Source: Agarophyton chilense
Lineage: Eukaryota > Rhodophyta > Florideophyceae > Gracilariales > Gracilariaceae
Length of the DNA stretch: 64,000 bases
Assembly (NCBI GenBank): GCA_030374765.1
Contig: JARGXX010000092.1
Coordinates: 186,001 to 250,000, forward strand
Direction: 5' to 3'
Shown here: one piece after another, positions 103 to 37,763 of the stretch
Layout of the letters: each line of letters begins with the position of its first letter
Position numbering within the stretch: position 1 is the first letter of the stretch
The notes under the pieces: generated by a model
Database searches by the model: none
What the model was told of the DNA's origin: nothing
Seen by the model: the letters and a program-made list of their open reading frames with translations, nothing else
Position numbers and translations under genes: made by a program

Positions 103-1266
103 TCATTCCTCAAAGTCGAAGCGATGAGATACGATGACATCATTGGTACCATCGGCGATGAGTCGCGATTCATCAAATGCTACAGTGCCGATGTATCGGG
201 TGAAGCCACATATGGCGTAATGATTTTCAGAATTGTGAATGGACTGCACGGCAACACAGCCATCTCTACCCGCTGAGATTAACTTGGATGCGTCTAATTG
301 TAGAGACATTATTGCGGCTTGATGTCGTTGTAAAGAAAATACTTGAGATCCGTCTTTCAAGGACCAGATGCTTAAATTACCTGTAGAATCACCTGTTGCC
401 AATAGTTCACTTTCCTCGAGGTAATCCACGGCGGTTGTGTTCGCTCTGTGACATGGAATTGAAAGCAAGTGGATTCCGCTTTCAGCCTGATGTGCGTGTA
501 CTTTGCCGCTGGCGCATCCGAGAAGCAAGTAACCTCTATCAGTGAGAACCATTGAGAATATGGGCTCTCCCACACGAATTATGCGTACAGTTTCACCGGT
601 TCGAAGATTGGATACCCTGACTGTACCATCGGCGCTAGCAGAGTAGATTGTTCCACTCTCACGGTGTATGCGGAGACATGTGACAAGATCATCATGTCCA
701 GAGATGGTGAGATGAGGTAATGGAAGTTGTCGTTGAGCATGGTCATGGTTGGTCATTCGGTTGGACCAGAACCGACGCCTCTCAAACTGCTGGCACGACC
801 AAACGCAGATGTTTCTGTCCAGCGAACCGACGGAAACAATGTAACCGTCCCGATAGTCAATTGCCGTAACCTGTCCGTCATGAACATTCGGGCAGCGCAT
901 GGCCAGTCCAGTGACAAGATCAGCGAATAACACACTACCAGAAGCAGTTCCAAACGCCATGAAATCGCCATGAAACGAGAGCTTTCTGACGAAATCATTG
1001 GGTACACATGCCACAATGCTGGCTCGATAAATGCCATTGCGCCAGTTGTGGGCAATGAAACGGTTTCTAGCGACTTGTGCCTCGCGAAGACTCGAAAGAC
1101 GGTCGTGGAGGACGTGCCATGGCGGCTCGCTTGATGGGAAGTCTTCTGCTGACTGGTTGTCCGTGGGGTTGTTTGGGGGCTGCAGATTGCAGACGAAACG
1201 CGTCCTTCTCCTTGGGGGACGGGGAGAGCAGTGTGTTGGAAGCGTGCTGGGGATGAAGGTTGTCAT
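103..1266 (-). CDS. WD40-repeat beta-propeller protein, F-box-WD40-like
   Basis: 387 codons from an ATG at 1264-1266. Residues 1-48 are proline-, arginine- and threonine-rich and look disordered. Residues 50-90 (W50, L53, R56, then N74-W75-x2-G78) resemble the linker that follows the F-box in Fbw7-type proteins, where an N-W-R-x-G motif precedes the first blade, but no F-box is visible. From about residue 90 to the end there are six or seven WD-type blades, with recognisable D-x5-W/S turns at SLDRNICVWS (about 148-157), SADGTVRVSN, DSTGNLSIWS and GRDGCVAVQS. The family acts as a docking platform for protein complexes, often for ubiquitin ligases; the partner here cannot be told. It is divergent to the gene at 1573 with a 306-bp shared upstream region. 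It seems complete in one exon; a further upstream exon with an F-box is possible. Confidence 0.85.
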   Translation of the reverse strand: MTTFIPSTLPTHCSPRPPRRRTRFVCNLQPPNNPTDNQSAEDFPSSEPPWHVLHDRLSSLREAQVARNRFIAHNWRNGIYRASIVACVPNDFVRKLSFHGDFMAFGTASGSVLFADLVTGLAMRCPNVHDGQVTAIDYRDGYIVSVGSLDRNICVWSCQQFERRRFWSNRMTNHDHAQRQLPLPHLTISGHDDLVTCLRIHRESGTIYSASADGTVRVSNLRTGETVRIIRVGEPIFSMVLTDRGYLLLGCASGKVHAHQAESGIHLLSIPCHRANTTAVDYLEESELLATGDSTGNLSIWSLKDGSQVFSLQRHQAAIMSLQLDASKLISAGRDGCVAVQSIHNSENHYAICGFTRYIGTVAFDESRLIADGTNDVIVSHRFDFEE

Positions 1267-12100: not shown

Positions 12101-13016
12101 TGTAGAGCAACGCCCAGTTAGGGGATACTTGAAAATGCAACTCATAGAATGAGGATTGAACCCTCCGAGGGTTATGACTATGATCCCCTCTAAGGTGTGC
12201 TGAGGTGGCACTGTTTTCTGGTTAGAATTCGCCTATAAGGGAAAATTCGGATGGCCCATGGTTGGATTGGCCCCGTGATACACGTGGCTTAATTTTGGCA
12301 CCGAATTTCGGATATTTGTTAGAACGTTGGATTTTTGGGCCCTGACAGTTGGATCTCCACGTGTATGGCCCTGAGCAGGTGTGCACTACTGTAGAGTTTA
12401 GTTAGTGGGCCCTACTTAGGGAGATGAGATCTGACAGTCCGAAGCTCAAAGTAAATGGGAACCAAGGTTGGTCTTCGATACCTTTAGAGGTTCTTCGTCG
12501 CCATCGTTTCGGCCTTACAACCCGGAACGGGCTCTGGTTAGCAACGCCTGCGTAGGGACACGACTCCACTTGGAGAGTGCCCACGTTTGGGTTCCGTGCA
12601 ACCACCCCCTTGGGACCGCTCAGACGACCTGCGTGCACGATACCCCGTGGGGGTTCTGCTTACTTGTTGCGTGCTTTTTGTGTTTCCTTTCGAGGACAGG
12701 TTTTCGCCCCTGTATTGGGTTTCTTTTGTTGTTTCGCCCCTTTTCTGGTTCTCGGGTCCGGTGCCTGTTAGTGCCCGACCCTCGCCCCGTTTTTCCTCTT
12801 CGCCGGATTTTCCCCTATTCTTTGGGATACCCATACACATTCCCGATCCAACGGTTTCTACCCCTCACCTCCGTCGGTACTGCCGGAATCCCCCGTGGGA
12901 GTTACACCCCACACTACGGGTGGAACGGAGGGCTCTGTCTCTGAGTCTGCCTCCCCCCAGGGAGCAAGGCTTCGAACACCTTGAGAGCACTTCCCGTCGC
13001 CGGGTTTTGCTCCACA
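12101..13016 (+). repeat. 5' LTR of element 1
   Basis: 916 bp, beginning TGTAGAG and ending CTCCACA. The right end is set by comparison with the solo copy at 50543, which shares sequence up to the same CACA. It contains the perfect palindrome AACCCTCCGAGGGTT near the start, a TATAA-type stretch (CCTATAAGGG, about 12232-12241), and the motif CGCCCC-TGTATTGGG at 12706-12719, which recurs in other LTRs here. A 158-codon frame inside the LTR starts with TTG and is not taken as a gene. Confidence 0.92.
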
Positions 13017-13243: not shown

Positions 13244-15274
13244 ATGTCGCCGCCTACCCGTGGTTCCAGGACTGGATCGAACCGTGAAGCGGATTCAGTG
13301 CCCCCGGCCCCGCCTAGGCCGAGGAGCTCAATTCCCGAAGGTCGGAACGATTCCGGTATCGATCCGGACACTCGGAGAGCACCCTCAGTGGTTTCAGGTC
13401 CGCGAGAGGTCGTGGCTGTGGGCCCAGCTCCAGTGGTGGAGACCCCCTCAGCAGCACCCCGAAGTCGGGCCGACCCTGAATTACAGCGCCTGGAGACTCG
13501 AATCGATATCGCCAACGCGGCTCACGTCGAGCTCCTTCAGGAGGTTACTACCCTCCGCCTCAAGGTGGAGGACGCCCCGGTGCGGGGAGTCGCCGATGAC
13601 CTTCGTACCCTGAGGAGGGATGTGAACTCCCTTTTGGAAAGCTTTGGTACCCCTGGGGTCTTTATCCAGGAGTACCGGAGCCTCGTGGAGGAACACCGCG
13701 TGCAAGCGGAACGCTTCCGAGCTCGGCTGGACACCCTCGAGGCCATTATCCGTATGGACGGAGACGCAGAAGCCTCGAAGGATAAACCCGACGTTTCGGA
13801 AGACGAAGAACACCGCTTCGCTAAACGGGACCGCCGCAAGTCTAAGAAGAGGGTTTACCTCCAAGAGGATTTATCGGATTCCGATCCCAATCGCTCGCCA
13901 TCGAGTTCGTCCTCCGAATCTTCGGATAGTGAAGATGAACGCCGGTCATCCCGGGCAACTCAGTCGAAGGCTACTTACACCTCTCAAGGGGCAATCCGTA
14001 CCCGGAAGAAAGGTAGGAAACACCTTGGATTAAGGGAGCTGAACCCGACGAATCCTCTCTATCGGAAGCTGCTATCGTACCGCTATTACCGGTTGGATAA
14101 CCCTTCGGGAGATCGAACATCCCGCGGAACGGGTAAGGTCAAGGACTACATCAAAAGGCTGAGCATCACCCTACAGAAGAGGGAGTTCACAGGAACAGAC
14201 CCAATTCTGGTGCTCGATTTCCTTGCGAGGTTCGTCCAGGAGGCTGACATCCTCGGTATGAGTGAAGCGCAAGCGTATCTTGCATTACCCTATTTCTTAA
14301 AGGGGATGGCTGAAGACCAGTTCAACTCCGTCCGTGGATCATCCCGAGCCTCTGAAGGGGGAGTCACGTGCTGGCCCGAAGCGGTGCAGTACCTCTTGAG
14401 TTCATACGCTACTGGAAATGCGATTCAGGAAGCAATCCTTGCATTAAGGGATACGCGGCAGAAGCCGATGGAAACCGAAACGGTGTATTCAACTCGCTTG
14501 AATAAAGCGTTTCACCGATGCCGGAATGTATTCCCCGCCTACGAGAGATGCTCCATGTTTGTGGATGGTTTGGACCCCTCGATAAGGGCATTGGTTGCCC
14601 GACATCGGGAAGAGAAGCGCAAGCTGACCTACTTGGAACTGGTTAAGTACGCCCAGGCTGAGGGGGATACTCTCCGTGCCCGGCAGAACCGAAAGAGTCG
14701 GCCGACACGTGCACTCCTCGCCGATGGAGGGAACTCGTCTTTGTCACTCGCAGGAGGCCCTGCCCCTGTGGGGGTCAATGATAACATTCACTTCATGGGA
14801 AGTAACCCCGAATCTATAGGTACGTCTGAGTTGCCGTCGACATTCGCTCCGACTACGGATGAAGACCCAGCGCTCTATACCCACGGACGGAGGGTGCCAG
14901 CCGCATCGCTACCTTTTGCGAATACCGCTGCTCGGTTCTCTCGCCCCGGATGGAGGGATACAGGACCACGTCGCGTGGATTCATGTCCACAACCGAACCC
15001 GGCAGAGCTGATTTGCTATTTTTGTTACCTCCGTGGTCACAAAGCACCAGACTGCACATTTCCCCTGCGGGAGGGTTCACGAATTATCGCTCAGTACGAG
15101 GCTCTGACCCCTGAGGAGAAAGCTCGAGTCCCGAGTAGGTCCTATGAGGAACAAAGGATACTCCGAGCTCACCTTGCTGACAGGGATACAGAACTTGTAC
15201 CCGCGAACGGGGAACAACCGGTCCCCTTCGAGGCAGCTGCACCAAATTCGGTGGGGTCCGCTTCGAAAAACTAA
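13244..15274 (+). CDS. gag: gag of element 1 (intact)
   Basis: 676 codons from an ATG at 13244 to TAA at 15272-15274, with no internal stop. The N-terminal 75 residues are Pro/Ser/Arg-rich. Residues about 80-185 form coiled-coil heptads (LQRLETRIDIANAAHVELLQ and LRTLRRDVNSLLESF are recognisable anchors). A basic/serine region (190-255) leads into the capsid-like core starting around NPLYRKLLSYRYYRLDN, a segment conserved in elements 2 and 3. Near the C-terminus is a single CCHC zinc knuckle, C-YF-C-YLRG-H-KAPD-C, for RNA packaging. The reading frame is one base ahead of pol (see the frameshift site). Confidence 0.92.
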   Translation: MSPPTRGSRTGSNREADSVPPAPPRPRSSIPEGRNDSGIDPDTRRAPSVVSGPREVVAVGPAPVVETPSAAPRSRADPELQRLETRIDIANAAHVELLQEVTTLRLKVEDAPVRGVADDLRTLRRDVNSLLESFGTPGVFIQEYRSLVEEHRVQAERFRARLDTLEAIIRMDGDAEASKDKPDVSEDEEHRFAKRDRRKSKKRVYLQEDLSDSDPNRSPSSSSSESSDSEDERRSSRATQSKATYTSQGAIRTRKKGRKHLGLRELNPTNPLYRKLLSYRYYRLDNPSGDRTSRGTGKVKDYIKRLSITLQKREFTGTDPILVLDFLARFVQEADILGMSEAQAYLALPYFLKGMAEDQFNSVRGSSRASEGGVTCWPEAVQYLLSSYATGNAIQEAILALRDTRQKPMETETVYSTRLNKAFHRCRNVFPAYERCSMFVDGLDPSIRALVARHREEKRKLTYLELVKYAQAEGDTLRARQNRKSRPTRALLADGGNSSLSLAGGPAPVGVNDNIHFMGSNPESIGTSELPSTFAPTTDEDPALYTHGRRVPAASLPFANTAARFSRPGWRDTGPRRVDSCPQPNPAELICYFCYLRGHKAPDCTFPLREGSRIIAQYEALTPEEKARVPSRSYEEQRILRAHLADRDTELVPANGEQPVPFEAAAPNSVGSASKN

Positions 15275-15298
15275 ACTTGGGAGTCTCCCCTACGGGAG
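15263..15298 (+). promoter_or_regulatory. Candidate -1 ribosomal frameshift site, gag to pol
   Basis: Pol is open in the -1 frame from 15139 (after a TAG at 15136-15138), so it overlaps the end of gag by about 135 nt. At the very end, gag reads TCG AAA AAC TAA; G AAA AAC is close to the classical A AAA AAC slippery heptamer. A hairpin follows, CTCCC (15285-15289), loop CTAC, GGGAG (15294-15298), about 13 nt downstream. The frame relation is seen directly; the exact slip site is inferred. Confidence 0.5.
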
Positions 15299-18078
15299 GG
15301 GCGTCTTCTAAGCCGGAGTTGAAGACGCCCGAGGCGCTCCAGCTTCGCTCCCCAGCTGTGACTATCCTTTCAAGGAGAACGGCTGACACCGACGTTAACT
15401 CGGGATACTTTAGTGTCCTCCGTCGCCCGTGGATACGGTCCCGTAATCTCCGTGTTCCGAATCGAGTTATGGTAATGGCCAAGCGGAATTATAAAGTATT
15501 CGCCGACTTCGGCCTGTCCAACCAGTTTATGGTTCGTCAAATATCTGTCCTGGATATAGGAGCCGCTCCTAACTTAATTCATGTTGAATTGTTACCCCCG
15601 CTGCTCCGGGTTCAAGTTCGTACCGGTCCACGTTTGGATATCGCCGATGCGAACAACAACCCGCTACGGACACTGGGTACAATTTCCCTCATGGTGAGGT
15701 TAGGCTCCTATCTCGTTCAGCTAGAGTTTATGGTATGCAAGTCACTTGCAGCCCCAGTCATACTGGGTTGTGACTTTTGCGACCGCTTCGTGGAAGCCAT
15801 CCGTCCTCGGAATAGAACTGTGGAACTCGAAGACGGGTCTACGATTCCAATCGTTCGTAAACCCTTACAGGGAGCAGCGCGAACACGCGTTCCTCTCCCT
15901 GTCGCGCAGGAATCTGTGAAGAAGGACCCGGTTTCTACACGGGTAAAGGTTGCGAAGTCAGTGGCTATTCCGCCAGAAACCCAGGTTTGGGTCACAGTTG
16001 TTACCAAGCAAATTGGTGTGCATGTGGTACAACCGAACCCGTCTTTTTATACGCGGCGTCAACTCGCCCTTGCGAATGGGGTGGTCTCCGTGGAACTGGA
16101 TAAACCTTTCAAGGTTTTGGTAGCCAACTTTGGAAAGACAACGCAGCATTTGGTCAAACACCAGATCCTGGGTTCTGTTCTTCCACACCCGCATGCGGTC
16201 GTACCTACAAAGATCTCTATCGCAGAGGTCCTTGGTGTGGCGGACCCTAAGGAGGGGGAGGACACTGCCGAAATCGCGGAAGACGGTGAGCATACGACTG
16301 CAGCTCCACACGCTGGATACTTTAAACCTCAGAAGGTTAAGGCCCCTATCACAGGAGCAGACCAGACGGATCCTGTTCAGGAATTGGAGAAATGGGATCT
16401 CAACCATGTACCCGCATCTCATCGGGAGAAGCTGAGGCACATGCTTCGTGAATTTACCCCCATGTGGGATGGTTCCCTTGGAACTATTTGGATTATAGAA
16501 CACCGCATCGACTTGTTACCGAACACTCGGCCTATTGCCCAACACCCTTACAGGGCTGGACCGAAAGCTCGAGAAAAGGAGAAATCTCAGGTGGAGAAGA
16601 TGCTTAAAGCGGGCGTAATTGAACCTGCCCAGTCCGCTTGGGCCTCACCAGTGGTGTTAGTTCCGAGACCGGATGGATCGTGGCGTTTCTGCATCGATTA
16701 CAGACGCCTGAACGAGGTAACCATTAAGGATGTGTACCCGATCCCTCGGATGGACGAATACATCGACTCCCTTGGGAGCGCTACTGTTGTCTCTACCCTC
16801 GACGCCAATTCGGGCTACTGGCAAGTCCCTATTAGGGAGGAAGATCGAGACAAAACGGCTTTCGTGTGTCATCAAGGACTTTTCCGATTCCGGAGGATGC
16901 CTTTTGGGTTGACAAATGCCCCCGCAACGTTTCAACGGGCGATAGACATTCTGTTGGCTCCCTTCAAGTGGAGGACGTGTCTAGTGTATTTAGACGACAT
17001 TATTGTCTTCTCCAACAACCTGGATGACCACCTCGAACACGTCAGGGACGTAATGAAGATACTCCGCGACGCGGGAATCACCTTGAAACTCAAGAAGTGC
17101 GAGTGTTTCACCGATTCGGTTAAGTATCTGGGTCATATCATCCGTCCCGGACAGCTTTCAATCGATGAAGTACGAGTGAAATCCTTGAAGGAAGCAAAAC
17201 ACCCGAAAACTCAAACGGAGTTGCAATCCTTCTTAGGTCTGTGTAACGTGTATCGCCGATTCGTCCCGAACTTTGCGGATATTGCCACCCCCCTCAACAG
17301 GCTCCTGACGAAAAGACAACCAGTTGAACTGGAACCTTTTGGCGACGCGGAAGCGTCTGCCTTCATGGCACTGGTGAATGCCGTAACATCACCGCCAATC
17401 TTGGCTCTACCCAATCCTGGGCTCCCTTACGAAGTGGACACCGATGCTAGTGCAAACCAAGTAGGGTGTGCACTGCTCCAATCCTCTGAGGATGGTGAAC
17501 GTCACACTATTGGGTACTGGTCACGTTCCCTGAATGTCCATGAAAGGAACTACTCGGTCTCCAAGAAAGAATGTTTAGCCGTTGTTTGGGCCTTAGCCAC
17601 ACTTCGCCCCTATCTGATGGGTACTCGTTTCAAAGTCCATACGGACCACGCATGCTTGCGTTGGCTCCTGGAGATCTCCGAACCGTCCGGCCGCCTTATG
17701 CACTGGCGTCTCCGACTGTCGGAATTCGACTTTGAGATCCTGTACAAGAAAGGGAAGCTGAACACTCAGGCTGATGCACTATCCCGCTTGGGAACCACAG
17801 CGGAAACGGAACCCTACGAGGAAGATGACATCCCATGCTTTATGGTATCGGACCTCGAGGTGGGACCTCAACCGCTGACAGATGATGTTTGTGACGATAT
17901 ACTCGTCAACGAGAGTCTGGATTCGCCGACCGGCTCTTTTATACCTATCTCTCCAGAGGAGATGATACGCGAGCAACAGCTCGACCCATTCTGTACACGG
18001 ATTCGGGCTCGCCTCAACGGAGGATTTCAGTTACCTTTCGAGGACGACGATCAGGGTTACCTAATCAGGACCGTTTGA
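15277..18078 (+). CDS. pol: pol of element 1: protease, reverse transcriptase, RNase H
   Basis: An open frame of 933 codons (open from 15139). Protease: the active-site motif is L-D-I-G-A (about 15550-15564), where D-T/S-G-A is usual; element 3 has DTGA here, so Thr has become Ile. A linker follows, then RT with conserved blocks CIDYRRLNEVT, YPIPRMDEY, LDANSGYWQV, the F-G-L-x-N-A-P-x-T-F block and the catalytic VYLDDIIVFS. RNase H is seen at YEVDTDASANQVG, with the later E and D blocks (KKECLAVVWAL; HTDHACLRWLL). The frame ends in TGA at 18076-18078, just before the integrase zinc finger, and integrase continues in the same frame. Translation probably depends on -1 frameshifting from gag. The protease change and the stop codon make autonomous activity doubtful. 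Confidence 0.9.
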   Translation: MGVSPTGGASSKPELKTPEALQLRSPAVTILSRRTADTDVNSGYFSVLRRPWIRSRNLRVPNRVMVMAKRNYKVFADFGLSNQFMVRQISVLDIGAAPNLIHVELLPPLLRVQVRTGPRLDIADANNNPLRTLGTISLMVRLGSYLVQLEFMVCKSLAAPVILGCDFCDRFVEAIRPRNRTVELEDGSTIPIVRKPLQGAARTRVPLPVAQESVKKDPVSTRVKVAKSVAIPPETQVWVTVVTKQIGVHVVQPNPSFYTRRQLALANGVVSVELDKPFKVLVANFGKTTQHLVKHQILGSVLPHPHAVVPTKISIAEVLGVADPKEGEDTAEIAEDGEHTTAAPHAGYFKPQKVKAPITGADQTDPVQELEKWDLNHVPASHREKLRHMLREFTPMWDGSLGTIWIIEHRIDLLPNTRPIAQHPYRAGPKAREKEKSQVEKMLKAGVIEPAQSAWASPVVLVPRPDGSWRFCIDYRRLNEVTIKDVYPIPRMDEYIDSLGSATVVSTLDANSGYWQVPIREEDRDKTAFVCHQGLFRFRRMPFGLTNAPATFQRAIDILLAPFKWRTCLVYLDDIIVFSNNLDDHLEHVRDVMKILRDAGITLKLKKCECFTDSVKYLGHIIRPGQLSIDEVRVKSLKEAKHPKTQTELQSFLGLCNVYRRFVPNFADIATPLNRLLTKRQPVELEPFGDAEASAFMALVNAVTSPPILALPNPGLPYEVDTDASANQVGCALLQSSEDGERHTIGYWSRSLNVHERNYSVSKKECLAVVWALATLRPYLMGTRFKVHTDHACLRWLLEISEPSGRLMHWRLRLSEFDFEILYKKGKLNTQADALSRLGTTAETEPYEEDDIPCFMVSDLEVGPQPLTDDVCDDILVNESLDSPTGSFIPISPEEMIREQQLDPFCTRIRARLNGGFQLPFEDDDQGYLIRTV

Positions 18079-19152
18079 CCTCGCCCGAGGATAGTGGTGC
18101 CGCACACCCTACAACAGAGGGTATTACACCTCACTCACTATTTGAAGGTTGGCGCCCACCCCGGGGGAAGAAAACTGTACCTCAAGTTGAGAAGGGACTT
18201 TTACTGGACGGCAATGGCATTCGATTGTTACGCCGTCAGACGGGCCTGCGCCAATTGCGCCAAGAATGACGTCAAACTTCGGAAGCACTCTAAGAAGTTG
18301 ACGCTGTTCCCGGCACGGGCTCCACTCGAATTCGTGGACATAGACATCCTAGGGGAGTTTATCAGGACGCCCCGAGGTCATCGGTATCTGCTTGTCATTT
18401 CTGACAGATTCTCTAAGCTAACGAGAACTGTGCCGCTGAAGCGGATCACCGCCGCTACCGTCGCGCAAGCGTTCGTGACCCATTGGGTGTTCGTATATGG
18501 ACCGCCGGTGCAGTTGTTATCCGACAACGGAGGGCAATTCGCATCAAAGTTCTTTCAGGATGTATGTCAAATCCTTGATGTAAGGAATTTATTTGTTACT
18601 ACGTATCACCCTCAGGGGAATGGCCAGGTGGAGAGGTTTAACCGCACGATACTCAACGCTTTGAGATCGTATGTTGCGGATCACCCCAAAAATTGGGACT
18701 TGTACACAGACGCTATCACGTATGCATACAACACCCAGGTACATCGGGTTACATCGTTATCCCCATTCGAACTGGTACTGTCGAGGACACCGCCGCCGGT
18801 CGCCATCGAGGCTCAACCGACGCTGTCGACGTACCCGTCACCGGGATTGTACCGAGAAGCCTGGAAGGAGTGGCTTACGAAGATGGTGCCGATAGCCCTG
18901 AAAGCAATGGACAAGGCTCAACGCGCCTATAAGAAGGTCTTTGACAATCGGGTTCGCAAACCTCTACCTCAGGTGGAGCCCGACGACTTCGTCTTCCTTC
19001 GAAAGGAATACTACAATCCTGAAAAGGAACGTAGGCACAAGCTTTCGCCAATTGTGGACGGACCCTATCGTGTGGTTTCTGTAGACCCGGACACGGTGGT
19101 ATTGGATATCGCTAACCGCCACGAACGGATCTCCAGGGACCGCATCACATGA
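18079..19152 (+). CDS. pol: Integrase part of pol of element 1, behind an in-frame TGA
   Basis: Same frame as RT/RNase H, separated by one TGA (18076-18078). The order is an HHCC zinc-binding region (H-x3-H near HLTHYLKVGAH, then C-A-N-C), the catalytic core with D in VDIDILGEF, D in LLSDNGGQF and E in GQVERFNRTI (DD35E), and a C-terminal GPY/F-like part (DGPYRVVSV). It ends in a second TGA at 19150-19152 in D-R-I-T-stop-A-P, where element 3 reads D-R-V-T-R-A-P, so the stop lies on an Arg (CGA-type) codon. Either these are two recent C-to-T hits at CpG sites, or the stops are read through. Confidence 0.85.
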   Translation, partial: PRPRIVVPHTLQQRVLHLTHYLKVGAHPGGRKLYLKLRRDFYWTAMAFDCYAVRRACANCAKNDVKLRKHSKKLTLFPARAPLEFVDIDILGEFIRTPRGHRYLLVISDRFSKLTRTVPLKRITAATVAQAFVTHWVFVYGPPVQLLSDNGGQFASKFFQDVCQILDVRNLFVTTYHPQGNGQVERFNRTILNALRSYVADHPKNWDLYTDAITYAYNTQVHRVTSLSPFELVLSRTPPPVAIEAQPTLSTYPSPGLYREAWKEWLTKMVPIALKAMDKAQRAYKKVFDNRVRKPLPQVEPDDFVFLRKEYYNPEKERRHKLSPIVDGPYRVVSVDPDTVVLDIANRHERISRDRIT

Positions 19153-20441: not shown

Positions 20442-20681
20442 ATGGAAGAGAAGCCCGAACAGGGAAAAGTGTACCCGCAGGAATTCGTTATCGATCGCAT
20501 CGTGCGTCACATCTACACCCCCGAGGGAGAAGTCCGCTACCAAGTCCGATGGTACGGATTCTCGCCTGATGAGGATACAGTGGAACCCATTGAGCACCTT
20601 CCGAGGTCAAACGTTTTATCCTATCACCGACGCGCTCGGGTAACCTTGCCTCCAAGTCTGGATCGTGCCCAAGTCGTGTAA
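20442..20681 (+). CDS. Chromodomain ORF of element 1
   Basis: 79 codons from the ATG at 20442 (the frame opens at 20391 with GTG). The domain reads FVIDRIVRH, then YQVRWYGFSPDEDTVEP and I-E-H-L: aromatic-rich beta strands, a W-x-G-F/Y-x2-x-E/D-D-T-x-E-P signature and a C-terminal helix, as in Pfam Chromo. Of the usual aromatic cage, Y and W of the YQVRWYG strand are present, while the usual W of TWEP is V. Chromodomains of this class steer integration toward histone-marked chromatin. It lies in a different frame from pol and about 1.3 kb beyond integrase, so it must be reached by a separate mRNA, splicing or frameshift. Confidence 0.8.
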   Translation: MEEKPEQGKVYPQEFVIDRIVRHIYTPEGEVRYQVRWYGFSPDEDTVEPIEHLPRSNVLSYHRRARVTLPPSLDRAQVV

Positions 20682-20849: not shown

Positions 20850-21025
20850 TTATAATGAAAAAAAAAAGGAAAAGAAGACCCACGAAGTGCAGAAGAAGAT
20901 TAAGAAGAAGATTGGACCCTAGGAAGGGAAGAAGTTGAAGACGAAGATGATGAAGATCCTAAGAGGGAAGAAGAAAAGAAGTAGAAGTTAAGATCCTAGG
21001 AAGGAAGAAAAAAAGAAGTTATGCA
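20850..21025 (+). repeat. Purine-rich tract between chromodomain and antisense ORF
   Basis: About 175 bp that is almost entirely A and G, with repeated GA[TC]CCTA[AG]GA[AG]GGA blocks (near 20917, 20955 and 20992). On the opposite strand this is a pyrimidine tract just past the stop of the antisense ORF, so it may serve as its 3' UTR. It could alternatively act as an internal polypurine tract for plus-strand priming. Confidence 0.7.
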
Positions 21026-21085
21026 AATATCAGAAGTTTACTATTGTCGCCAAGCTATGGACTCCACAATTGCCCGAAGGCGGAA

Positions 21086-22746
21086 CTACGGAAAGCCCGA
21101 GGAGGGACCCGCCCCACCGTTGGGATTCGGACCCTGATGGTACGCCGAGGCGAAAGCCAACATCTGGCTCACATCCGTCATACCCGGGGGAATCGGAATG
21201 GCTGAGTTCACGAGGCCTTGTCCCACACTCTCTGCTTGCGGAGTGGCAACCGGCGCCTGCGCAAGGGTGTTCACACCCCACCCGGGGGGAGCAGATGGAC
21301 CGCCACCGGATGCATTCGCCGCCGCAGTTGAGGTCGTTCCCACTGGTTGGAAGGGTGCAAATGGCTCCACAGGGAGTACTCCACTAGAAGCTGGCATGTC
21401 GTTATCCAACGCTGGATCGTCCAGGTCTACTGGAGGCTCGTACTCGTAATCGTCGGTATAAATGAACCCCGTCGGGTGTCCCACCGGCATCGGTCGAGGC
21501 GAGTCCATCAGCGCCCGTGCTTGCGCCGCGCTGATGCGAACCCCTTCGAAGGGATTGTAATAGACCCAGTTACCGGAGCCCGGATCGTACCGGCCAGAAG
21601 ACTTGTCTTGCGCGGATCCTTTCCCTGCGGGCTGATTTTCCACTGGAACTCGATCCCATTGGGTGTTGTCGATCACGTCCAAGATTGGATACAGGTCCTG
21701 CACGCTGCTGGCCGAACCCAACGCTGGGACAAGGTCGATCTGACGCATGATGGTCCGTAGCATCGGAGGAATATACCAGATACGGAAATGGTGATGAGCA
21801 TCCCAGAGGAGGTGCGCCGCTACGCGGGCTGCGCACTCGGCTGCAACGAGGGCCCAGTATCCCGAGTTTGGGTCGTGCATCAAACGAGACCCGATATAGT
21901 AGATGCATGGGGGCAGTTCTGCAAAGCACCCTCGGGGGACCTCGACCTTACTCCACCAAGCTGGAAGGGGCACGAACCGCCCAACCTTCGCCGTGTTACG
22001 GATACGCTCCAGTTCCACGTGAGGATACGGGACAAGGAACCCGAAACGGGAGCGCGAGCGGCGCTCGAAGCGCACGCGTCGATCGAACCCATACTGGGTA
22101 AACTGCCGTTGAAGGTACCTGAATTCAGCCCGAAGGATGGGACGACTCCATTGGAGCATATCTTCTCGGAGAGGAAAACCCGGTCCGCGGAACTCGGCTT
22201 CGGGAAAGGCTGCCAGGTTATCCCCGTAGGAGACCTCACCGTACGTGCGGTAATAGGCGACATCGAACCCGTACTCCGGGGGAACCAGATGGTCAAAGCG
22301 TGACCTCTCCAATCGCTGGTAGGCCAGAGCCGCCATCGCTGCGCGCGCCTTGTCCAGGGACTCCACCTTCGGAAGGATTCGTTTGAGATCCAACCTCTGG
22401 AGTTTGCTACCAAGGGCATCGCATGAGCGGAGTTCCACGCCACCGCGTTAATGTCCAAATCCTCCTGAGGATGTCGGTTGCTCGCCGAGGCGGAAGGTTC
22501 GGTACCTGACGGAGCCGCATCCAAACTGGAAAAATATCCACCCTGTTGGGGAGCTTCGTTGTCCGCCGGCGCGGAGGCCGATGGCCCCGAGAGTGGGTTG
22601 AGGACGTATGGGTTCATTCCCTTGAGAGGGCTGGTTGAGACTGCTGTTGCGAGAAGTTGCTTATCGCCGAAAGTCGGAGGAGTAGAAGAAAGTTGTACCG
22701 ATGTGCCGGTTTTGTGGCGATCCTCAGAAGTGGTGAAGGACCCCAT
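21086..22746 (-). CDS. Antisense ORF of element 1, unknown protein
   Basis: An opposite-strand gene between the chromodomain and the 3' LTR. The main frame (22438 to 21086, 450 codons) has no ATG at its start: it opens just after a TAA near 22450. An overlapping frame with an ATG at 22744-22746, MGSFTTSEDRHKTG..., covers the N-terminal part, so one single-base frameshift between about 22447 and 21880 would join them into roughly 560 codons. The middle is rich in aromatics and arginine (GFLVPYPHVELERI, CIYYIGSRLM, FRIWYIPPML, LDVIDNTQWDRVP). The C-terminal third is acidic and Pro/Gly/Ala-rich and looks disordered. The landmarks GF-x-VE, YY-x-S-x2-M, R-[IV]-WY, R-x-D-[IL] and LD-x-VI recur in order in the antisense ORF of element 3. 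I recognise no known domain. Confidence 0.65.
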
Positions 22747-22827: not shown

Positions 22828-23720
22828 TGTAGAGCAACGCCCAGTTAGGGGATACTTGAAGATGCAACTCATAGAATGAGGATTGAACCCTCCGAGGGTT
22901 ATGACTATGATCCCCTCTAAGGTGTGCTGAGGTGGCACTGTTTTCTGGTTAGAATTCGCCTATAAGGGAAAATTCGGATGGCCCGTGGTTGGATTGGCCC
23001 CGTGATACACGTGGCTTAATTTTGGCACCGAATTTCGGATATTTGTTAGAACGTTGGATTTTTGGGCCCTGACAGTTGGATCTCCACGTGTATGGCCCTG
23101 AGCAGGTGTGCACTACTGTAGAGTTTAGTTAGTGGGCCCTACTTAGGGAGATGAGATCTGACAGTCCGAAGCTCAAAGTAAATGGGAACCAAGGTTGGTC
23201 TTCGATACCTTTAGAGGTTCTTCGTCGCCATCGTTTCGGCCTTACAACCCGGAACGGGCTCTGGTTAGCAACGCCTGCGTAGGGACACGACTCCACTTGG
23301 AGAGTGCCCACGTTTGGGTTCCGTGCAACCACCCCCTTGGGACCGCTCAGACGACCTGCGTGCATGATACCCCGTGGGGGTTCTGCTTACTTGTTGCGTG
23401 CTTTTTGTGTTTCCTTTCGAGGACAGGTTTTCGCCCCTGTATTGGGTTTCTTTTGTTGTTTCGCCCCTTTTCTGGTTCTCGGGTCCGGTGCCTGTTAGTG
23501 CCCGACCCTCGCCCCATTTTTCCTCTTCGCCGGATTTTCCCCTATTCTTTGGGATACCCATACCCATTCCCGATCCAACGGTTTCTACCCCTCACCTCCG
23601 TCGGTACTGCCGGAATCCCCCGTGGGAGTTACACCCCACACTACGGGTGGAACGGAGGGCTCTGTCTCTGAGTCTGCCTCCCCCCAGGGAGCAAGGCTTC
23701 GAACACCTTGAGAGCACTTC
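22828..23720 (+). repeat. 3' LTR of element 1, lacking its last 22-24 bp
   Basis: It matches the 5' LTR with about five differences that I could see, up to GAGCACTTCC, then stops. The lost part is CGTCGCCGGGTTTTGCTCCACA. The missing end can be explained by a deletion between ACTTCC inside the LTR and the target duplication (CTTCC at 12096-12100). Confidence 0.88.
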
Positions 23721-25416
23721 CTCGGCGATATTCCGGTGTCGAATACTCATAAGTTAATATTGATTCTGTCGTGGGGAATGCTCTACTTATGAGAGAGAAG
23801 TTGTAGTTTGTTGGCGCTATGGTAACGTGGTACATTTAGAAGGCAGGCATCTCCGCTACAATGGGTACCCACATGAGAAGAACATTAATTAGAAATGTAG
23901 TAATATAATAAGTGGCACTAGATTAATTTAATTAATTAAAATAATTAGTCTAGTGGCCACAGTAGAACAGTAGTAGGGCTCCGGCGATCTCGCCGTCGCC
24001 ATCAACGAGTAAATGGGAACCGTGTGTTCGCTTCTAATTGTGACTGCCTTTGCAGGATTGCTACTCCCTTCGGAGGGTATCTGCATTGCCATCGGTTCAG
24101 TTATCCAACCGACATCTCTCAAGGAGTGATTCTTACTACACTTTGTGTTTTCTCCTGTTTCTTTTATTCTTATATTTTACTGTGTGTTACAGGTTTCTTT
24201 TCCGCCCCAGTATTGGGGTGTTTCTTGGGTTCTTGTTAATTTTACTACTCTGTTGGAGTTTTCCCCTTTACTTACCCCTTTATTTCTCCTGTTTCAAAAG
24301 GCTATCAGAATTGATATCGTACACTTCATACTTTTTTCTATCCACACTTCCGTGGTATATCCTGAAGTCTCCGTGGGGTTACGCCCACAGCTGAAAGTGA
24401 AGTACAACCCTCGTGAGGGCCGTTTTCCAGGACTTGGTTGTTTTTCCGCCTCGGGCGATACTTGTGAGATCTATGAGTAATACCGCTACTAGCGGGCTGG
24501 CGTAGCCAGGTGTATACGCGTTGTACGCGAAGTGCACCGGCGGCCGTGCGTCGTGGCCCCGACTCGGGTGTGACTTACCCACGTGTACCACGGGTGGCCC
24601 AGGACAGGTTGGCACAGCATAGCTGGATATTTCTCTATTTATTTAGCTTTATTATACTAGGTTAGGGAGCTCTTTACAGTATTCTACACTATATAGTGCC
24701 AGGGCGATCTCGCCCTGACACTCAGTAAACCTCCCCAACCAGGGTTCTTGGCTCTAAGTCTTTTTCCGCTTTCGCGAGTCTTCCACACTCTACGGAGGTG
24801 AAGCCGCGTTACTAACGGTAGACTTATCCACCCTGCATCAACAGGAGACTCACCGCTGTTAGCGTTTATATCTTTCATACCACTGCCGTGTTCTCGCCCC
24901 AGTATTGGGTTTGCTACATATTTCTTTTGGCTCTCGTGGCCCATGCCCCCGATCGCCCCCACTGGGTGGTCCCCCCTTTATCGCTTACCCACTCTCGTGG
25001 TAGCTCCCCCTTTTGCTTTGTGGTTGGTTATTCGTGCCGCTCGCGCGTGTGCCGCACGCCGGCCTACCGGGTTTACCGCCACTCCTGTGGGTGCATTACT
25101 CGATCTCGAGACTTGCCCACTCCCGTGGAATACAGCTCATACCTGGTCTGCTCCCTTCTAGCATCCCGCACTCTCCCCGCTTGGCGTGCCGGTGAACCTC
25201 GGCCTTACACCCCGACTTAGTCGTGTTCACTCCGGAGAGGCTCCGTCGCCGTGCTACCCTCCTTGGAGGAAGACTCAAACATCTTCGTGTGTTTCCGCCG
25301 CCCTTGGCGTTGCACTACAGAAAGATACGGAAATCTCTACGCTGAGTTCCCCTAAGAAGGTAGCATGGCTTCAAACACCTTCAGTTTCTTTACCCCTCGC
25401 GGGGTATTGCACTACA
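23721..25416 (+). repeat. Two diverged LTR-like segments in tandem (23802-24510 and 24511-25416)
   Basis: Both segments start with TGTA (23802, 24511). In both, an AT-rich core lies about 110 bp in, the hairpin GGCGATCTCGCC about 180-195 bp in, then [AC]AGTAAA, and the motif CGCCCCAGTATTGGG (24203-24217; 24895-24909). The second ends GCACTACA at 25416, directly before a primer site, so it is the 5' LTR of element 2. The first is preceded by GAGAGAGAAG, a possible polypurine tract, and may be the 3' LTR of a lost relative. The outer ends are estimates. Confidence 0.6.
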
Positions 25417-27494: not shown

Positions 27495-27940
27495 TGTGAA
27501 GGAGCGGTGATAGCGGTTGAGCTTTGTAAGCCGCCGGGCCCTGAAGGATCCTGCAGACGACACGTGGACAGGGTCGACCTCAGGTGGACTGATGTGGATT
27601 ATTAATTTATTTTAATTAGTGTAATATATTAGCACTACAGTTCCAGGGAGATCCCAGCGCCTAGCCAGTACTATTTATTTGGCTCGAATGATGCTTCTCC
27701 CTTAGAGTAAGGTAGGCACCGTTAGGATACAAAATAACCCCTTTGGTATATTTGTTCCACCTTTTGGTCTTCAAGGCATCATTTCCGTAGCTCCAACCTC
27801 TAGGATTACGCAGTAAACGCCAGCCCATTGCACCAAGTACTCTGAGAGTGCCGCCGTCAATGATTCGAACATTAGGACACGCCCTACTACGCTACCACCG
27901 GTCGAGACCCGCACGCTGACCCACCCGTCACTGCGTTATG
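27495..27940 (+). repeat. 5' LTR of element 3
   Basis: It begins TGTGAAGGAGCGG and aligns with 37318-37763. It holds an AT-rich core (ATTATTAATTTATTTTAATTAG) about 95 bp in. On the minus strand near 27850-27915 is a tRNA-like stretch with an A-box-like TAGCGTAGTAGG and a T-arm-like AATG-TTCGAAT-CATT. The terminal CA seen in the 3' copy reads TG here. A primer-site-like GTCTCGCGACTTAGAATCC follows at 27946. Confidence 0.85.
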
Positions 27941-30439: not shown

Positions 30440-32926
30440 AGGAAATAGAACTAAAAAGTTCTAGTAACCGTAGCACTTCGTTCCAACAACTCTCGAGTGA
30501 CCACAGCTGTATTGGACACAGGCGCTGGTCCCAACTTGGTTCATCCTAAGCTGCTCCCACTAGGTTGGAAAGACTTCGTTCAGGCAAGGAAGACCTCAAG
30601 GATTACCGATGCGTAAGGTATACCAGTATACATTAAAGATATAGTACCACTTTACCTCTAGGTAGGATAATTCACAGTTCGCACGTGGTTTCTCGTATGT
30701 CCTAACTTAAGCGCCGAGGCAATCCTAGGGACATCCTTTATCGACGGATACATTAAGGCCATTTATCCAGGCTTTACGAAAGTCGCGTTTTATCGCGCAC
30801 CTTCCATCTCCATGACTGGTTCAACCCCGGGGCCAGAAGCTACCCGCAAACGGGCGGTTATCTCCGAAAACCTGAAGTCCAATAAGGTTCGCCTGTCAAA
30901 GGCCATAACGATACCGCCGATGACCCAAATCGCTGTATCGGGGCATTCCCAGTTCTCAGGTCTCGTAACGATTCAGAACCACCCGAAAACGGTTCTGAAG
31001 CACATTAACTTGATGGCCAATGGAGTAATGGACATCCACCCCAACAGGTCCTTCTTGGTCACAATCAGCAACTTCCGAGATCAACCAGTGCGGTTACCTA
31101 AAAGTACAGTGACTGGTATCAGTCCACCCGTGCCCATGGCCATTATGGAGGCCCAAATGGATAACCTTGCGACGCCAACTCCCGACGAGGACGTCAACTC
31201 TTGGGAGGGGACGGTCGCCATTGGCGAAGAATTCGAATCCTATAGGCCCCAGGTACTTGATCTCCTCAGGGAATACCAGGCCATGTGGTCAGGTAGATTG
31301 GGCACAATCAGAGCCACTACACACCGCATTGACCTTCAGGATGACGCTAGACCACAGTTCCAGCACCCATACCGTACCGGCCTTAAAGGAAGGGAAATAG
31401 TCGCCGACCAGATGGAAAAGATGCGCAAAGCTCCAATCATAGAGCCGGCGCCTCCAAACCAATCTGAATGGGCAAGTCTCCTTGTCCTCGTGGCCAAGAA
31501 AGATGGCTCCGTCAGGTTCTGTGTCGACTACAGGAAGCTGAACGCAGTAACAAAGAGGGACTCATAGCCGATACCCCGCATGGACGACTGTCAGGATTCT
31601 TTAGGCGAAGCTGTCGTATTTACCACACTGGACGCTAACTCGAGATATTGGCGAATCCCTTTGGCCGAAGACGCGAGAGCGCTGACAACCTGTAACACCC
31701 ATGAACGTCTGTTCAGATTTTCTCGCATGCTTTTTGGTTTGAAGAATGCAACAGCCACTTTCCAACGGGTAATTGACATTATACTGTCCAGAGTCAAATG
31801 GAAGTTCGCCCTGGTATATTTGGATGACGTTATGATCTTCTCATGGACCGTAAAGGAACACTTTCGCCACGTTAAGAAGGTGCTAACAATCCTACAGGAC
31901 GCTGGAGTAACACTGAAGCTCCACGAATGCTCTTTCTTCCAGGCCTCAGTGGACTATGTCGATCACGTCGTCCTCCCAGGAAAGCTAAAGGTGGCCACAC
32001 AGACAACGAAAACGATTCGCCAGGCTAAGCCTCCTAGGACCCACACGGAACTACGATCCTTCGTAGGCTTGTGCAACGTTTATCGACGGTTCGTCCAAGG
32101 ATTTTCTAAGATCTCGGCCCCTCTAAACGCGATGCTGAAGAAGGGAACACCTTCGGAGTTCGAAGCCCTTACGGAAGACCAGTACGAAGTATTTCAGACC
32201 CTAAAGGACAAACTGCTGAACCCACCCATATTCACTTCACCAAAGCCCAATAGGCCTTTCGTCCTGGACACAGATGCCTCTGATGTCCAAGTTGGATGTG
32301 CACCGCTACAAGAACAGGAGTCTCCGAAGGACTATCGACCTATTGGCTACTGGAGCAGAACGCTCACCAGCGCGGAGCGTAACTACAGTACGACCGAAAA
32401 GGAATGTCCAGCCATCGTATGGTCCGTATTCACATTCCGTCCGAACCTCGAGGGAACCAGATTTACCATTAGGACAGGCCATGACTCACTCCGCTCGCTA
32501 CTCAATATGACCGATGCATCGAGTCGCCTCCCTAGATGGCGCCTCAGGCTGTCAGAATAAGACTACGAGCTAACCTATAGGCCAGGCATCAAGCAACAGG
32601 CAGCAGATGCCATGTCGCGAATCACTACCGACGGAACTGATGACACTCCATTGGACGACCTAATTCCTACCCCCTTTACAGACGATAGACCTCAGAACTA
32701 TACGGAAACAGATGACCTTATGGGTAAGGTGCTATCGGAGGATCCTGAGGTAAAGGAGAACGAAGTATACCTATTGCACTGGGAAACAGTACCGCCCAAT
32801 TCGGCACCACCTCAGGTTAACGCGATAGCCACTGAGGAAAAAGAACTCCTTCCTATAACTATTGAGGAACTTCTACAGGCGCGCAGGTTGAAGACGAGTA
32901 CTGCAAGGAAAAATTCCAATTGGTAA
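30440..32926 (+). pseudogene. pol: Protease, RT and RNase H of element 3, broken
   Basis: One frame with point stops. The protease active site LDTGAGPNLVH is intact at about 30510-30545, with an I-L-G-T-S-F block near 30720. RT has FCVDYRKLNAVTK, then a stop at 31566 where the family has Tyr (TAC to TAG), then PIPRMDD, LDANSRYW and the catalytic VYLDDVMIF (intact). RNase H has VLDTDASDVQVG. Another stop at about 32558 again replaces an aromatic codon, in LRLSE-stop-DYELTY. The element is dead but informative for comparison with element 1. Confidence 0.88.
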
Positions 32927-32939
32927 AAACCCCAGATGC

Positions 32940-34142
32940 ATGTTCGACTTTGACCGATTAGGACAACTATGTCGCCGCTCACCGCTGGATGGCGCACTCC
33001 AACGGATAATACCAACTTCGCAAAGGGCGCGATTCCTATACCTCGCCCATTTCCCTCGCTTGGCTGGTCACCCTGCAGGCCGACGAATGTACCAGACCCT
33101 AGGGAAGTTCTTCTACTGGCCTCTAATGGCGCAGGACCGATGGCAACCCGCACGGAACTGCACATCGTGCGCACAGATCCGAGGGTCTCGCGCCACCCAT
33201 CAGGCCAAACTGAAGCTCTTCCCCGCCGCAGGTCCAATGGAATTTGTCGCAATGGATATACTTGGGCCTTTGCCTAAGTCGTCTCATGGGAAGCGGTTTG
33301 TTTTGTTTATAACTGATAGGTTTACCAAATTTACCCGAGCCCTACCCTTAGGAAAGACAGCGGCCACGGATGTCGCCACGGCCTTCTTGTCTCACTGGGT
33401 ATATCTATATGTCATGCCACTGTATCTCCTTACGGATAACGGCAGCCAGTCTGTATCCAAATTCTTCTCGCATGTCTGTGCTACCTTAGGTATCAAACAT
33501 GTGAACACCACGGCATACCATCCGCAAACCAATAGCCAAGCGGAAAGCTTCGCACCCTTCTGGACCGATTGGCGCACTAGGTTTCGGAGCACCAATTGGA
33601 CTGAGACGAACACGTTGAGCCACTGGTTTATGCCTACAACACGCAGGTGCACGCTTCCACAGGGACAACGCCTTTCGACTTAACGCTAACGGGAGCGCCG
33701 CCGCCGATAGCTGTTGACCTTCAGAAGTCTATCATACCCCAGGACATAACCGAAGTGATGACTCCTACCCAGGCGGAGGGCTACTCGCGCCGACGCATTG
33801 ACCGCATTCTCCAATCGGCTAGAACTGTAATAACCAAAGCCCAACGGCGCTACGAGTTCAATTTCGACAAAGGCGTTTGGAACACACCGACCTTTGGGAA
33901 GGAGACCTTGTTTACCTGGACTGGCCACCAAAGAACAGTGAGAAACTCTAGGACACTACGCGGAAGCTCTTACCCCGCTCTACGGGACCATACAAAGTCC
34001 TTAAGGCCAATGAACACACCATCACGTTACTCATTGACGGCCTACAGGACACCGTATTAATTGACCGCGTGACACGAGCTCCCAGTTCCTCCGGACCACC
34101 AGAGTCCCAGACCTCTGGCCCAACGGAAGCACCCCGACCTTA
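32940..34142 (+). pseudogene. pol: Integrase of element 3, frameshifted
   Basis: The first frame (32940-33683) carries the zinc-binding region (H...H near YLAHFPRLAGHPAG, then CTSC), the catalytic D in VAMDILGPL and D in LLTDNGSQ, and the third block near YHPQTNSQAESF. A frame change near 33630 moves the rest to another frame (STGTTPFDLTL), and another lies near 33920. The end reads L-I-D-R-V-T-R-A-P, the homologue of the TGA-carrying D-R-I-T-stop-A-P of element 1. Confidence 0.82.
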
Positions 34143-34295
34143 GGTCGACGATCAAATCTCCACACCCCCTATGGCAGTTCCCGAGGACTCGACTAGCCCC
34201 ACAGCCACGATGGTCAATGCCAACTGCTATGACCCATCGCTCCCAACTGATTCCGATGGATAAGCCACTCTGGACCACACTCTCCTTCCGGAAGA

Positions 34296-34476
34296 TGAAC
34301 ATCAACCGGAATTTGTCACTGAGCGCATCATCTCCGCCGGTCGGGGAGAAGATGGGACTACGCGCTATCGCGCCCGTTGATTCGGCTACACACCTGAGGA
34401 AGATATTTGGCAAAAGCCTCAAATCATTCCGGCTAATTTTATCGCCCGCTATTGGCGCAGAATCAGCCTCTCTGAG
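34296..34476 (+). pseudogene. Chromodomain relic of element 3
   Basis: It reads EFVTERIISAG, then RYRAR, a TGA, FGYTPEEDIW and I-A-R-Y-W. It aligns with EFVIDRIV, YQVRW-YGFSPDEDTV of element 1. The TGA sits exactly on the conserved Trp (TGG to TGA). About 160 nt separate it from the end of integrase, much less than in element 1. Confidence 0.7.
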
Positions 34477-34826: not shown

Positions 34827-36904
34827 TCACTGGGGCGGCGCAGGAGTAACTCTGTCGTCCCCATTTGAACCTGAAGGAGCGAAACCGGGACTAGGGTCAT
34901 CCGAGGAGCCAACTGGTCCACCTGAACCAGCCTCAGCGAGCCGAGCACGCTTCTTCGGCGGAGATTCAACTGGGGAACTATTGTCACTATTTGAAACCTC
35001 CGGGTCACTCAAAGTGAAACCATACGGGGCATCCAAGTCGGCAGTAACCCTCTGTGACATCACTTGCGCATTCTGCTGCAGGATATTGACCATGGCGGTC
35101 TTCAGGTCCTGAACCTGTTGGACAACCGCGGCGCACGAGCCGAGCGACGCGCCCAGTAGCATGCTTCCCTCAGGACTGTCGCAATGTCTATCGAGGCCGT
35201 AATAACAACAGTACGGCAGACATGACGGAGATCCGTAGCTGCCGAAGTGACCGAAGCAGGAAAGTGTATCAACGGAGAGAACGGAGCGATGACGACGCCC
35301 CTGGTGGACGTTTGAGCAAGTGCCTCCCCTACAGGACTGTCGGTTTCGACAGTAACCTCGCCAGAAGGAATATTCACTTGGGCGACAGGCTGGTCATACG
35401 AGAGCTCATCCATAGGAGTAGCGCCCGGAGGAGCCGGAGAAGGGGAAGCAGTCGGCAACACCATAGCGGACTCGACAGGAGGATGAACGCCCTCCAAGGG
35501 TGGGACAGAGAGATCTTTACCGAAGGATTCTCCGTCGGATATACCAGCAGGAACCAACGGCGTGGCTTCCACATCAGACTCGAAGCACAGAGAACCGAAA
35601 CCAATGGCCTTCGGATAATATTCGGGCCCATGACGCCTCGGAATGTTCGATGGTTGATTCCTCAAAGGCTTGGCGAGATAGACACAAGCGTTTTCCCGAC
35701 CCTGAGAATGCAGCGGAACCGGAGTGAATGCTGTATCCCAGTCATACCAAAGGAACCGAGGAGTCTTGCCCCACTCCACCTGTATGACATGATCCAAAAG
35801 AGCCTCAGTCTCCTCGACTTCGAACGTAGTCCCACGGACGATATTCTGGATGCCCAGGTTCCTTCGGAAGGGGATCATGATATCTGGGCGCGGGATTAGG
35901 CGACCTAGAGGACCGGGTATGTTCTCATTGTACCACACCCTCCAATCCTCAGAACGGACATTCCCACGAATTACGTACTTCGCAGTACCCAGAAAGGCCA
36001 AAAGGGACATCACGCCGAACTCAACGAAGAATACTTGCCCAGACAGCCACAACCTTTGGTCATTGTCAGCTCCCATGGGTTCGGACGAGTAGTACGCCAC
36101 CATGGACGGCGTGGGAACCAGAAGAAGCGGCGAGAAACGCCAATACATGGTCCATTGGTTCTCATTCTCGTGGGGAAGTGAAAGATATAACGGAAGACGT
36201 TTGTCTGCGCTCATGTCGTGGACCTCTACTTGGTGCCAACAAAAGAAGAATCCCAGGGGTTGACGCAGACGACCATCGGGCTCGTGCATCTCGTTCCAAT
36301 AGACATAGTCGTATATCCAGAATAAGTGGACGTACGGTGGCCGGAAGCACATAAGTGCCAAGAGGTTGCGACCAGCCAGAGGAAAGCGCACATGAGGCGA
36401 GATGAATACCGTGTATAGGTCCAAAAGGAGTTTGTTCACCCTGAACTGGTATTAGGCTTCCTCCTCGCAGCGGACGTATGCACTGTCCGCTTGGACGAGG
36501 GTGCGACATCGCGTCGCCGAACGCGGATCCAAAGGACAATGCAACCATCGTATATACCGCAAGACGCTGCGCGCCTTCTTTCTACCCCTCCGTAAATCTG
36601 TTATTTTGGCAAACCTTCGGGCGTTAAGATACATATGGCAAAAATTTTGGTATTCTCCCACAGAGGACGGAAGAATGGCATGACGCACTGCCCGTGGGTT
36701 CCGTCCGATGGTATGTTCATAACGGTCCCCAGGACGTTCGTAGGCCACTTCGTATCCTGAGGAGCTCCCCGCTTGGTTGATCGAAGCCATGCTGTCGTTG
36801 CTCACAGGCTGGTCCGCCGGGAAGTGAAAAGGACGACCAACGGAAGCGATAAAGTCCGGAGGGAGAACTGCATATCCAATGGGCTTATAAAGCGACTTCG
36901 ACAT
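34827..36904 (-). pseudogene. Antisense ORF of element 3, counterpart of that in element 1
   Basis: From the ATG at 36902-36904 the frame runs to a TAA at 36452-36454 and then on, in the same frame, to 35102, about 600 codons with one stop. A further minus-strand frame (35162 to 34827) adds a coiled-coil-like segment (VVQQVQDLKTAMVNILQQNA) and a nuclear-localisation-like PPKKRARL, possibly the displaced C-terminus. Ordered landmarks match element 1: GFFFCWHQVEV, AYYSSEPM, DWRVWYNENI, IPRPDIM, LLDHVIQVEW. It is rich in Trp, Tyr and Phe in the middle and has an acidic, Pro-rich C-terminal third. No known domain was recognised. It occupies the same position, between chromodomain and polypurine tract. 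Confidence 0.65.
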
Positions 36905-37317: not shown

Positions 37318-37763
37318 TGTGCAGGAGCGGTCATAGCGGTAGAGCCCTGTAAGCCGCCGGGCCCTGAAGGATCCTGCAGACGACACGTGGACAGGGTCGA
37401 CCTCAGGTGGACTGATCTAGATTATTAATTTATTTTAATTAGTGTAATAGATTAGCATTACAGTTCCAGGGAGATCCCAGCGCCTAGCCAGTACTATTTA
37501 TTTGGCTCGAGTGACGCTTCTCCTTTAGAGTAAGATAGGCACCGTTAGGATACAAAATAACCCCTTTGGTATATTTGTTTCACCCTTTGGTCTTCAATCC
37601 ATTATTTCCGTAGCTCCAACCTCTAGGATTACGCATTAAACGCCAGCCCATTGCACCAAGTACTATGAGAGTGGCGCCGTCAATGATTCGAACATTAGGA
37701 CCCGCTCTACTACGCTACCACCGGTCGAGACCCGTACGCTGACCCACCCGTTATTGCGTTACA
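37318..37763 (+). repeat. 3' LTR of element 3
   Basis: 446 bp, TGTGCAGG to GCGTTACA. It has about two dozen substitutions relative to 27495-27940 and no indel that I could find, giving an older age than element 1. Confidence 0.87.

Follow-up and report, generated by a model that had tools for sequence, protein, structure and literature searches.

A 64,000-nucleotide stretch of the Agarophyton chilense genome (contig JARGXX010000092.1, forward-strand positions 186,001 to 250,000; the window) contains two Ty3/Gypsy retrotransposons, which we call elements 1 and 3, that each carry a long open reading frame (ORF) on the minus strand, between the chromodomain and the 3′ long terminal repeat (LTR). 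We regard it as fairly likely that this ORF represents an accessory gene, encoded antisense to the other genes, that Ty3/Gypsy elements with a chromodomain carry in red algae of the Gracilariaceae and that probably helps the retrotransposons to persist. Four or more element families of this genome possess the gene, and its reading frame is under purifying selection that, in the family to which element 1 belongs, is as strong as that acting on pol.

Element 1 is bounded by LTRs with 99.4% identity and is therefore a young insertion. It is organized as follows, with the RT (reverse transcriptase) and other domains identified by Pfam accession and, for two of them, expectation value (E).
12101..12994, plus strand: 5′ LTR, 894 bp, 99.4% identical to 22828-23721
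13244..15274, plus strand: gag-position ORF, 676 aa (amino acids), with a zinc-knuckle-like CYFCYLRGHKAPDC read by eye
15277..18078, plus strand: pol, RT and RNase H (PF00078, E 3.4e-38; PF17917; PF17919)
18094..19152, plus strand: pol, integrase (PF17921, PF00665)
about 20484..20615, plus strand: chromodomain in a frame separate from pol (PF00385, E 1.3e-8)
21086..22746, minus strand: antisense gene, ATG at 22746 and stop ending at 21086
22828..23721, plus strand: 3′ LTR, 894 bp, with a purine-rich tract immediately before it

The limits of the antisense gene are exactly those given in an earlier note on this DNA, which had described it as a minus-strand ORF of about 560 codons with one frameshift. 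The frame is indeed shifted, but the cause is a 196-bp deletion at about 22366 (relative to another copy, L013) rather than a one-base change, and the undamaged frame in sampled copies of the family has 618 codons from the ATG and 640 from stop to stop. The frame opens at about 22812, beside the purine tract and the edge of the 3′ LTR, and 81 bp separate the ATG from that edge; the true start is uncertain because the homologous protein P0002 begins at the counterpart of a second in-frame ATG, at 22617. The gag-position ORF has no Pfam match. The chromodomain lies downstream of the integrase in a frame of its own, of 120 codons in most hits of the element 1 type (E1-type). Splicing or frameshifting may join it to pol, or it may be made as a protein of its own. 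Database comparison showed 90% identity between an element 1 protein and an A. chilense product over 55% of its length. We also noted a purine-rich stretch with K/R/E-rich translations in the space that separates the chromodomain from the end of the antisense gene (20850-21085), several RT matches of the element 1 type that sit in open frames of 1542 codons, and a third copy of the element 1 LTR at 50543-51455, with 97-99% identity in the ungapped pieces listed, which is perhaps a solo LTR.

Element 3 has more diverged LTRs and a damaged coding region, with the following features.
27495..27938, plus strand: 5′ LTR, 444 bp, 94.1% identical to 37318-37761
31580..32560, plus strand: RT (part) and RNase H (PF00078, PF17917, PF17919), 51% identical to element 1
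32940..33683, plus strand: integrase (PF17921, PF00665)
34290..34440, plus strand: stop-interrupted chromodomain remnant, read by eye in translation
about 34827..36904, minus strand: antisense gene in three pieces (36904-36455, 36451-35102 and a shifted tail)
37318..37761, plus strand: 3′ LTR, 444 bp, 94.1% identical to the 5′ LTR

The element 3 antisense gene thus occupies the same place as that of element 1, as the earlier note had proposed, and its shifted tail carries the motif PKKRARL at 34961-34938. A 27-residue piece of the chromodomain remnant gave no Pfam match, and DNA resembling 34221-34440 was found opposite the antisense gene in all 30 copies of element 3 that we studied. Element 3 also matches A. 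chilense products, the best with 72% identity over 88%.

To place these genes in the genome we searched 80 Mb in 135 contigs and studied the 30 best-scoring copies each of element 1 (family 1, with the window copy among the 30) and element 3 (family 3). The copies were collected through the antisense ORF itself, so that copies without the ORF would not appear. Besides the window copy, family 1 has 93 matches at 93-96% identity among the best 94 of 1935 first-look candidates that were scored; after a second query, family 1 comprises at least 117 places and family 3 at least 95, and at least 468 places with an antisense gene were listed overall in the 80 Mb. Fifteen of the 30 family-1 copies have neither a stop nor a frameshift in the 640-codon frame, a proportion that applies to the best-scoring copies and is not an unbiased rate, and three others (L021, L023 and L027) are free of stops, their sole defect being a 2-bp deletion that, judging from the translations, precedes the ATG.

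The arrangement of the gene within the element is highly regular. The order of chromodomain, opposite-strand antisense ORF and LTR is seen in 30/30 family-1 copies, and in family 3 the chromodomain is on the opposite strand in 30/30, with the full order present in 25 of the 27 copies that have an LTR match; in position and strand the gene agrees with aORF-3R, the class of antisense additional ORFs that lie between pol and the 3′ LTR. The association is also apparent when approached from the chromodomain. A listed antisense gene lies within 3.2 kb downstream and on the opposite strand for 39 of 150 scored chromodomain hits (20 of the L073 type described below, 12 E1, 5 L069 and 2 E3), one hit has a listed gene on the same strand but none on the opposite strand, and no hit has one upstream. 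When the chromodomain positions were moved 50 kb in either direction, the opposite strand gave 1 and 3 hits and the same strand 2 and 1. The remaining 110 hits have no gene nearby among the matches listed, and some chromodomain hits are host genes.

The earlier suggestion that retention of an opposite-strand frame reflects selection is supported by variation among the copies. The ratio of nonsynonymous to synonymous differences per site (pN/pS) in the antisense frame is 0.537 in family 1 (30 copies) and, in family 3 (30 copies), 0.527 or 0.573 depending on whether L046 or L040 is used as the reference. A pol control, computed in family 1 alone, gave 0.531 (7 copies: 6 of 8 fetched loci and the window), and conservation like that of other element proteins, a further feature of aORF-3R, is thus seen in family 1. 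Stops are correspondingly few, with 0.73 per 1000 codons in the family-1 antisense frame versus 14-34 in the other five frames (30 copies), making them about 20-46 times rarer, and with 5.1 or 5.6 (by reference) versus 21-38 elsewhere in family 3. In family 3, variants common to at least two copies are distributed over codon positions 1, 2 and 3 as 260:193:355 and singletons as 281:279:221 with reference L046, and the picture is the same with L040 (shared 299:245:398, singletons 296:282:229). This contrast is as expected for selection in active lineages followed by decay after insertion.

We then asked how widely the antisense protein is distributed. Among five further chromodomain regions examined, two (L069 and L073) have an E1-type gene opposite the chromodomain, with 33-43% (L069) and 29-39% (L073) identity, depending on the stretch compared. 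Among the matches listed, the L069 query found 7 places at 94-100% identity and 111 at 53-65%, and the L073 query found itself and 137 places at 82-89%; these bands of identity suggest that there are more families. Adjoining the L069 element is an ORF (L069:1616-2470, minus strand) that by eye resembles a Harbinger-type (DDE_Tnp_4) transposase, and at a separate locus (L070, G000:C113:592865-595064) a stretch of element 1 pol lies beside an apparent host chromodomain gene.

Homologues are also found beyond this genome. Alignments of P0003 of Gracilariopsis chorda, which carries a hypothetical-protein annotation in that species, to 77 scored family-1 places show 41-44% identity and for the most part span residues 92-564 of P0003, and P0002 has 50% identity with the window antisense protein. 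A profile search added P0010, P0011, P0012 and P0013, which together with P0002 make up five homologues besides that of G. chorda. Because Gracilariopsis is a separate genus, the antisense gene should be at least as old as the split within Gracilaria, and the divergence of four Gracilaria species has been estimated at about 100 million years (PMC12502185, in excerpt). The gene is therefore probably at least about 100 million years old, unless it has moved horizontally.

The relationship between the element 1 and element 3 proteins is more distant. The earlier note had matched them through a series of short landmarks, and two of these, in the form R-[ILV]-W-[YH] and LD-x6-W (LDVIDNTQW in element 1, LDHVIQVEW in element 3), do line up in a profile alignment, but BLASTP between the two proteins is not significant (E 0.056). 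Comparison of the E1-type and element 3 profiles gave successive scores of 36.2 (P 0.0016), 48.8 (P 3.4e-5) and 51.1 (P 1.8e-5), rising as the E1-type profile grew more diverse, and with two rows lost from the element 3 alignment between the first and second comparisons. The final score compares with maxima of 28.7 in 200 column permutations and 28.2 in 100 block permutations, and with 19.9 for the reversed alignment, and single element-3-type proteins also make weak but in-order matches to L069 (tblastn E 0.002-0.009). We accept from these alignments that the two proteins are remotely homologous, over about 200 columns at 21% identity. Since elements 1 and 3 share 51% identity in RT and RNase H, their antisense proteins have diverged far more quickly than their pol.

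The antisense proteins are about 570-700 residues long and, as the earlier note had it, without a known domain: no match was found in Pfam, PHROG, PDB sequences or a fold search. TRP28 (PF04195), the domain of a plant antisense ORF considered below, is not among the Pfam matches at E up to 1 for 10 E1-type and 12 E3-type rows. A low-confidence AlphaFold model has a mostly helical core with flexible ends. A PKKR motif resembling a nuclear localization signal (NLS) is present near the C-terminus in 7 of the 12 family-3 rows, and the other five stop short of that point.

We favor the interpretation that the gene encodes a regulator. It would be transcribed separately, from a minus-strand promoter in or beside the 3′ LTR, as is suggested by the opening of the antisense frame next to the LTR edge, and its product would act in trans, probably in the nucleus, to regulate the expression or silencing of the element itself. 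A regulator is favored by analogy with the antisense protein of maize Grande, which is nuclear and has its own promoter (PMC7264820, in excerpt), and with regulatory ideas advanced for Retand (PMC11963269, in excerpt). Rapid divergence of the protein is as expected for a factor tied to the family's own sequences or to host defence. A more ambitious version, which we offer only tentatively, is that this undescribed protein family is regularly present as a third gene in the chromodomain Gypsy elements of red algae, and that it counters silencing or controls transcription in a way specific to each family; it would then be an LTR-element counterpart of the VANC proteins, having evolved independently of plant TRP28 genes.

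Several observations weigh against the favored interpretation. The 2.2 kb examined next to another chromodomain, L072, contain no such gene, and the intactness of the frame is overstated by sampling the best 30 copies per family. In family 1 the bias of shared variants toward third positions is modest (30:26:46) and singletons lean likewise (133:114:158). One of the complementary frames, rev1, also has a low pN/pS, at 0.524 in family 1 and 0.600 or 0.635 in family 3; the low value is explained by the third codon positions of rev1 falling on the same bases as those of the antisense gene, but rev1 has the most stops of the six frames (33.6 per 1000 codons in family 1). The hhalign probability for the final element 1 and element 3 match is just 78%. 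The proteins are mostly acidic, which disfavors simple DNA binding, and the NLS-like pattern is missing from E1-type rows except P0012. Family-3 rows have 19-residue hydropathy values of 1.0-2.0, which are borderline, and a membrane-associated role is possible there. Finally, the antisense gene is known here from sequence alone.

The main rival to a regulator is a structural role in the particle, in which the protein would be a second Gag-like or nucleocapsid-like packaging component or, in family 3, a membrane-associated one. Constraint equal to that on pol, a size of about 600 aa with the predicted helical core and flexible ends, and the moderately hydrophobic stretch in family-3 rows speak for such a role, but element 1 has a separate gag-position ORF, a BLASTP comparison of this ORF with E1-type antisense proteins returned nothing at E 1, searches for a domain or fold of Gag, capsid or envelope type found none, and E1-type rows lack a strongly hydrophobic stretch (19-residue hydropathy) except near the N-terminus of P0011 (2.15). 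We consider a structural role unlikely. It is quite unlikely that the ORF derives from a host gene taken up by the elements, or from a DNA transposon nested in them long ago and since fixed, with an element function unrelated to regulation: where ORFs of this kind come from is in general not known (PMC7264820, in excerpt) and the annotation of P0003 as a G. chorda hypothetical protein would be compatible with capture, but Pfam matched no transposase or host domain, and no fewer than four families have the gene in the same position.

Regulation by the antisense transcript of an LTR element, through double-stranded RNA or interference with the sense transcript, is known (PMC7264820, in excerpt), and the open frame could then be incidental. 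The protein-level constraint seen in pN/pS and the avoidance of stops in this one frame refute this as a sole explanation, the protein homology across families also speaks against it, and we judge it very improbable, although the RNA could act in addition. A last alternative is an artefact, a long ORF arising by chance opposite non-coding DNA. Long chance ORFs do occur in this DNA: on the strand facing the gene, the longest open stretch per copy is 145-299 codons (30 copies). Stop density, pN/pS and the conservation seen between families and between genera refute such an artefact, and its likelihood is negligible. A regulator remains our preferred reading.

Elsewhere in the window are a gene for a WD40-repeat protein (103-1266, minus strand) and an open frame of 1951 codons (57981-63836, plus strand) whose product has TIG and REJ domains and that resembles a large surface-protein gene. 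Two pairs of diverged direct repeats (74-77%) lie outside elements 1 and 3, at 44046-44263/53416-53633 and 48988-49155/52969-53136.

High copy number, the presence of several families and clear purifying selection make the function of the protein testable in this group of seaweeds, which are also farmed. Genome and expression data are available for the group (PMC12502185, in excerpt). We found no description of an antisense gene in red-algal elements in searches of open-access literature, only some of which were aimed at this topic, and to that extent the statement in the earlier note that none was described for algal elements survives; the protein family and its red-algal setting appear to be new. 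The name chromovirus, which the earlier note gave to these elements, is best taken as provisional, since chromodomain Gypsy elements outside the chromovirus clade have been reported in Ectocarpus (PMC12477816, in excerpt).

The earlier note mentioned antisense ORFs in a few plant LTR elements and some retroviruses. LTR elements with an antisense ORF in the interval from pol to the 3′ LTR are well recognized, also in a fungus (PMC7264820, in excerpt); the excerpted sources describe them mainly from plants, with parallels in retroviruses and the one fungal example. The antisense ORFs of maize Grande (gene23), rice RIRE2 and bean PvRetro13 share the position and strand of the algal gene and are conserved to a degree similar to other proteins of their elements (PMC7264820, in excerpt), and beyond land plants Boty of Botrytis cinerea likewise has one downstream of pol and before the 3′ LTR (same excerpt). 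The first three are land-plant elements and the host of Boty is a fungus, and all are likened to the algal gene by description, not by sequence. The antisense gene of human T-cell leukemia virus (HTLV), a retrovirus, is HBZ. The promoter of the HTLV gene is in the 3′ LTR (PMC7264820, in excerpt). The algal gene, for which a promoter there is putative, is comparable in the position of its ORF.

The analogy with VANC proteins is possible at the level of function only. VANDALs are DNA transposons, and their VANC proteins evolve fast. VANC of Arabidopsis VANDAL is an element-encoded, sequence-specific anti-silencing factor (PMC10398659 and PMC5735166, both in excerpt). The Retand antisense ORF has the TRP28 domain (PF04195), with function unknown and DNA binding predicted, and Retand is a non-chromovirus Gypsy lineage found in flowering plants (PMC11963269, in excerpt); unlike it, the algal proteins have no PF04195 match and are housed in chromodomain elements (PF00385 in element 1), whereas a non-chromovirus element would be expected to lack a chromodomain. 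That red-algal elements hold a non-TRP28 protein at the corresponding position and on the corresponding strand suggests repeated filling of this slot, and it becomes more likely that the protein has an accessory role from which the element benefits.
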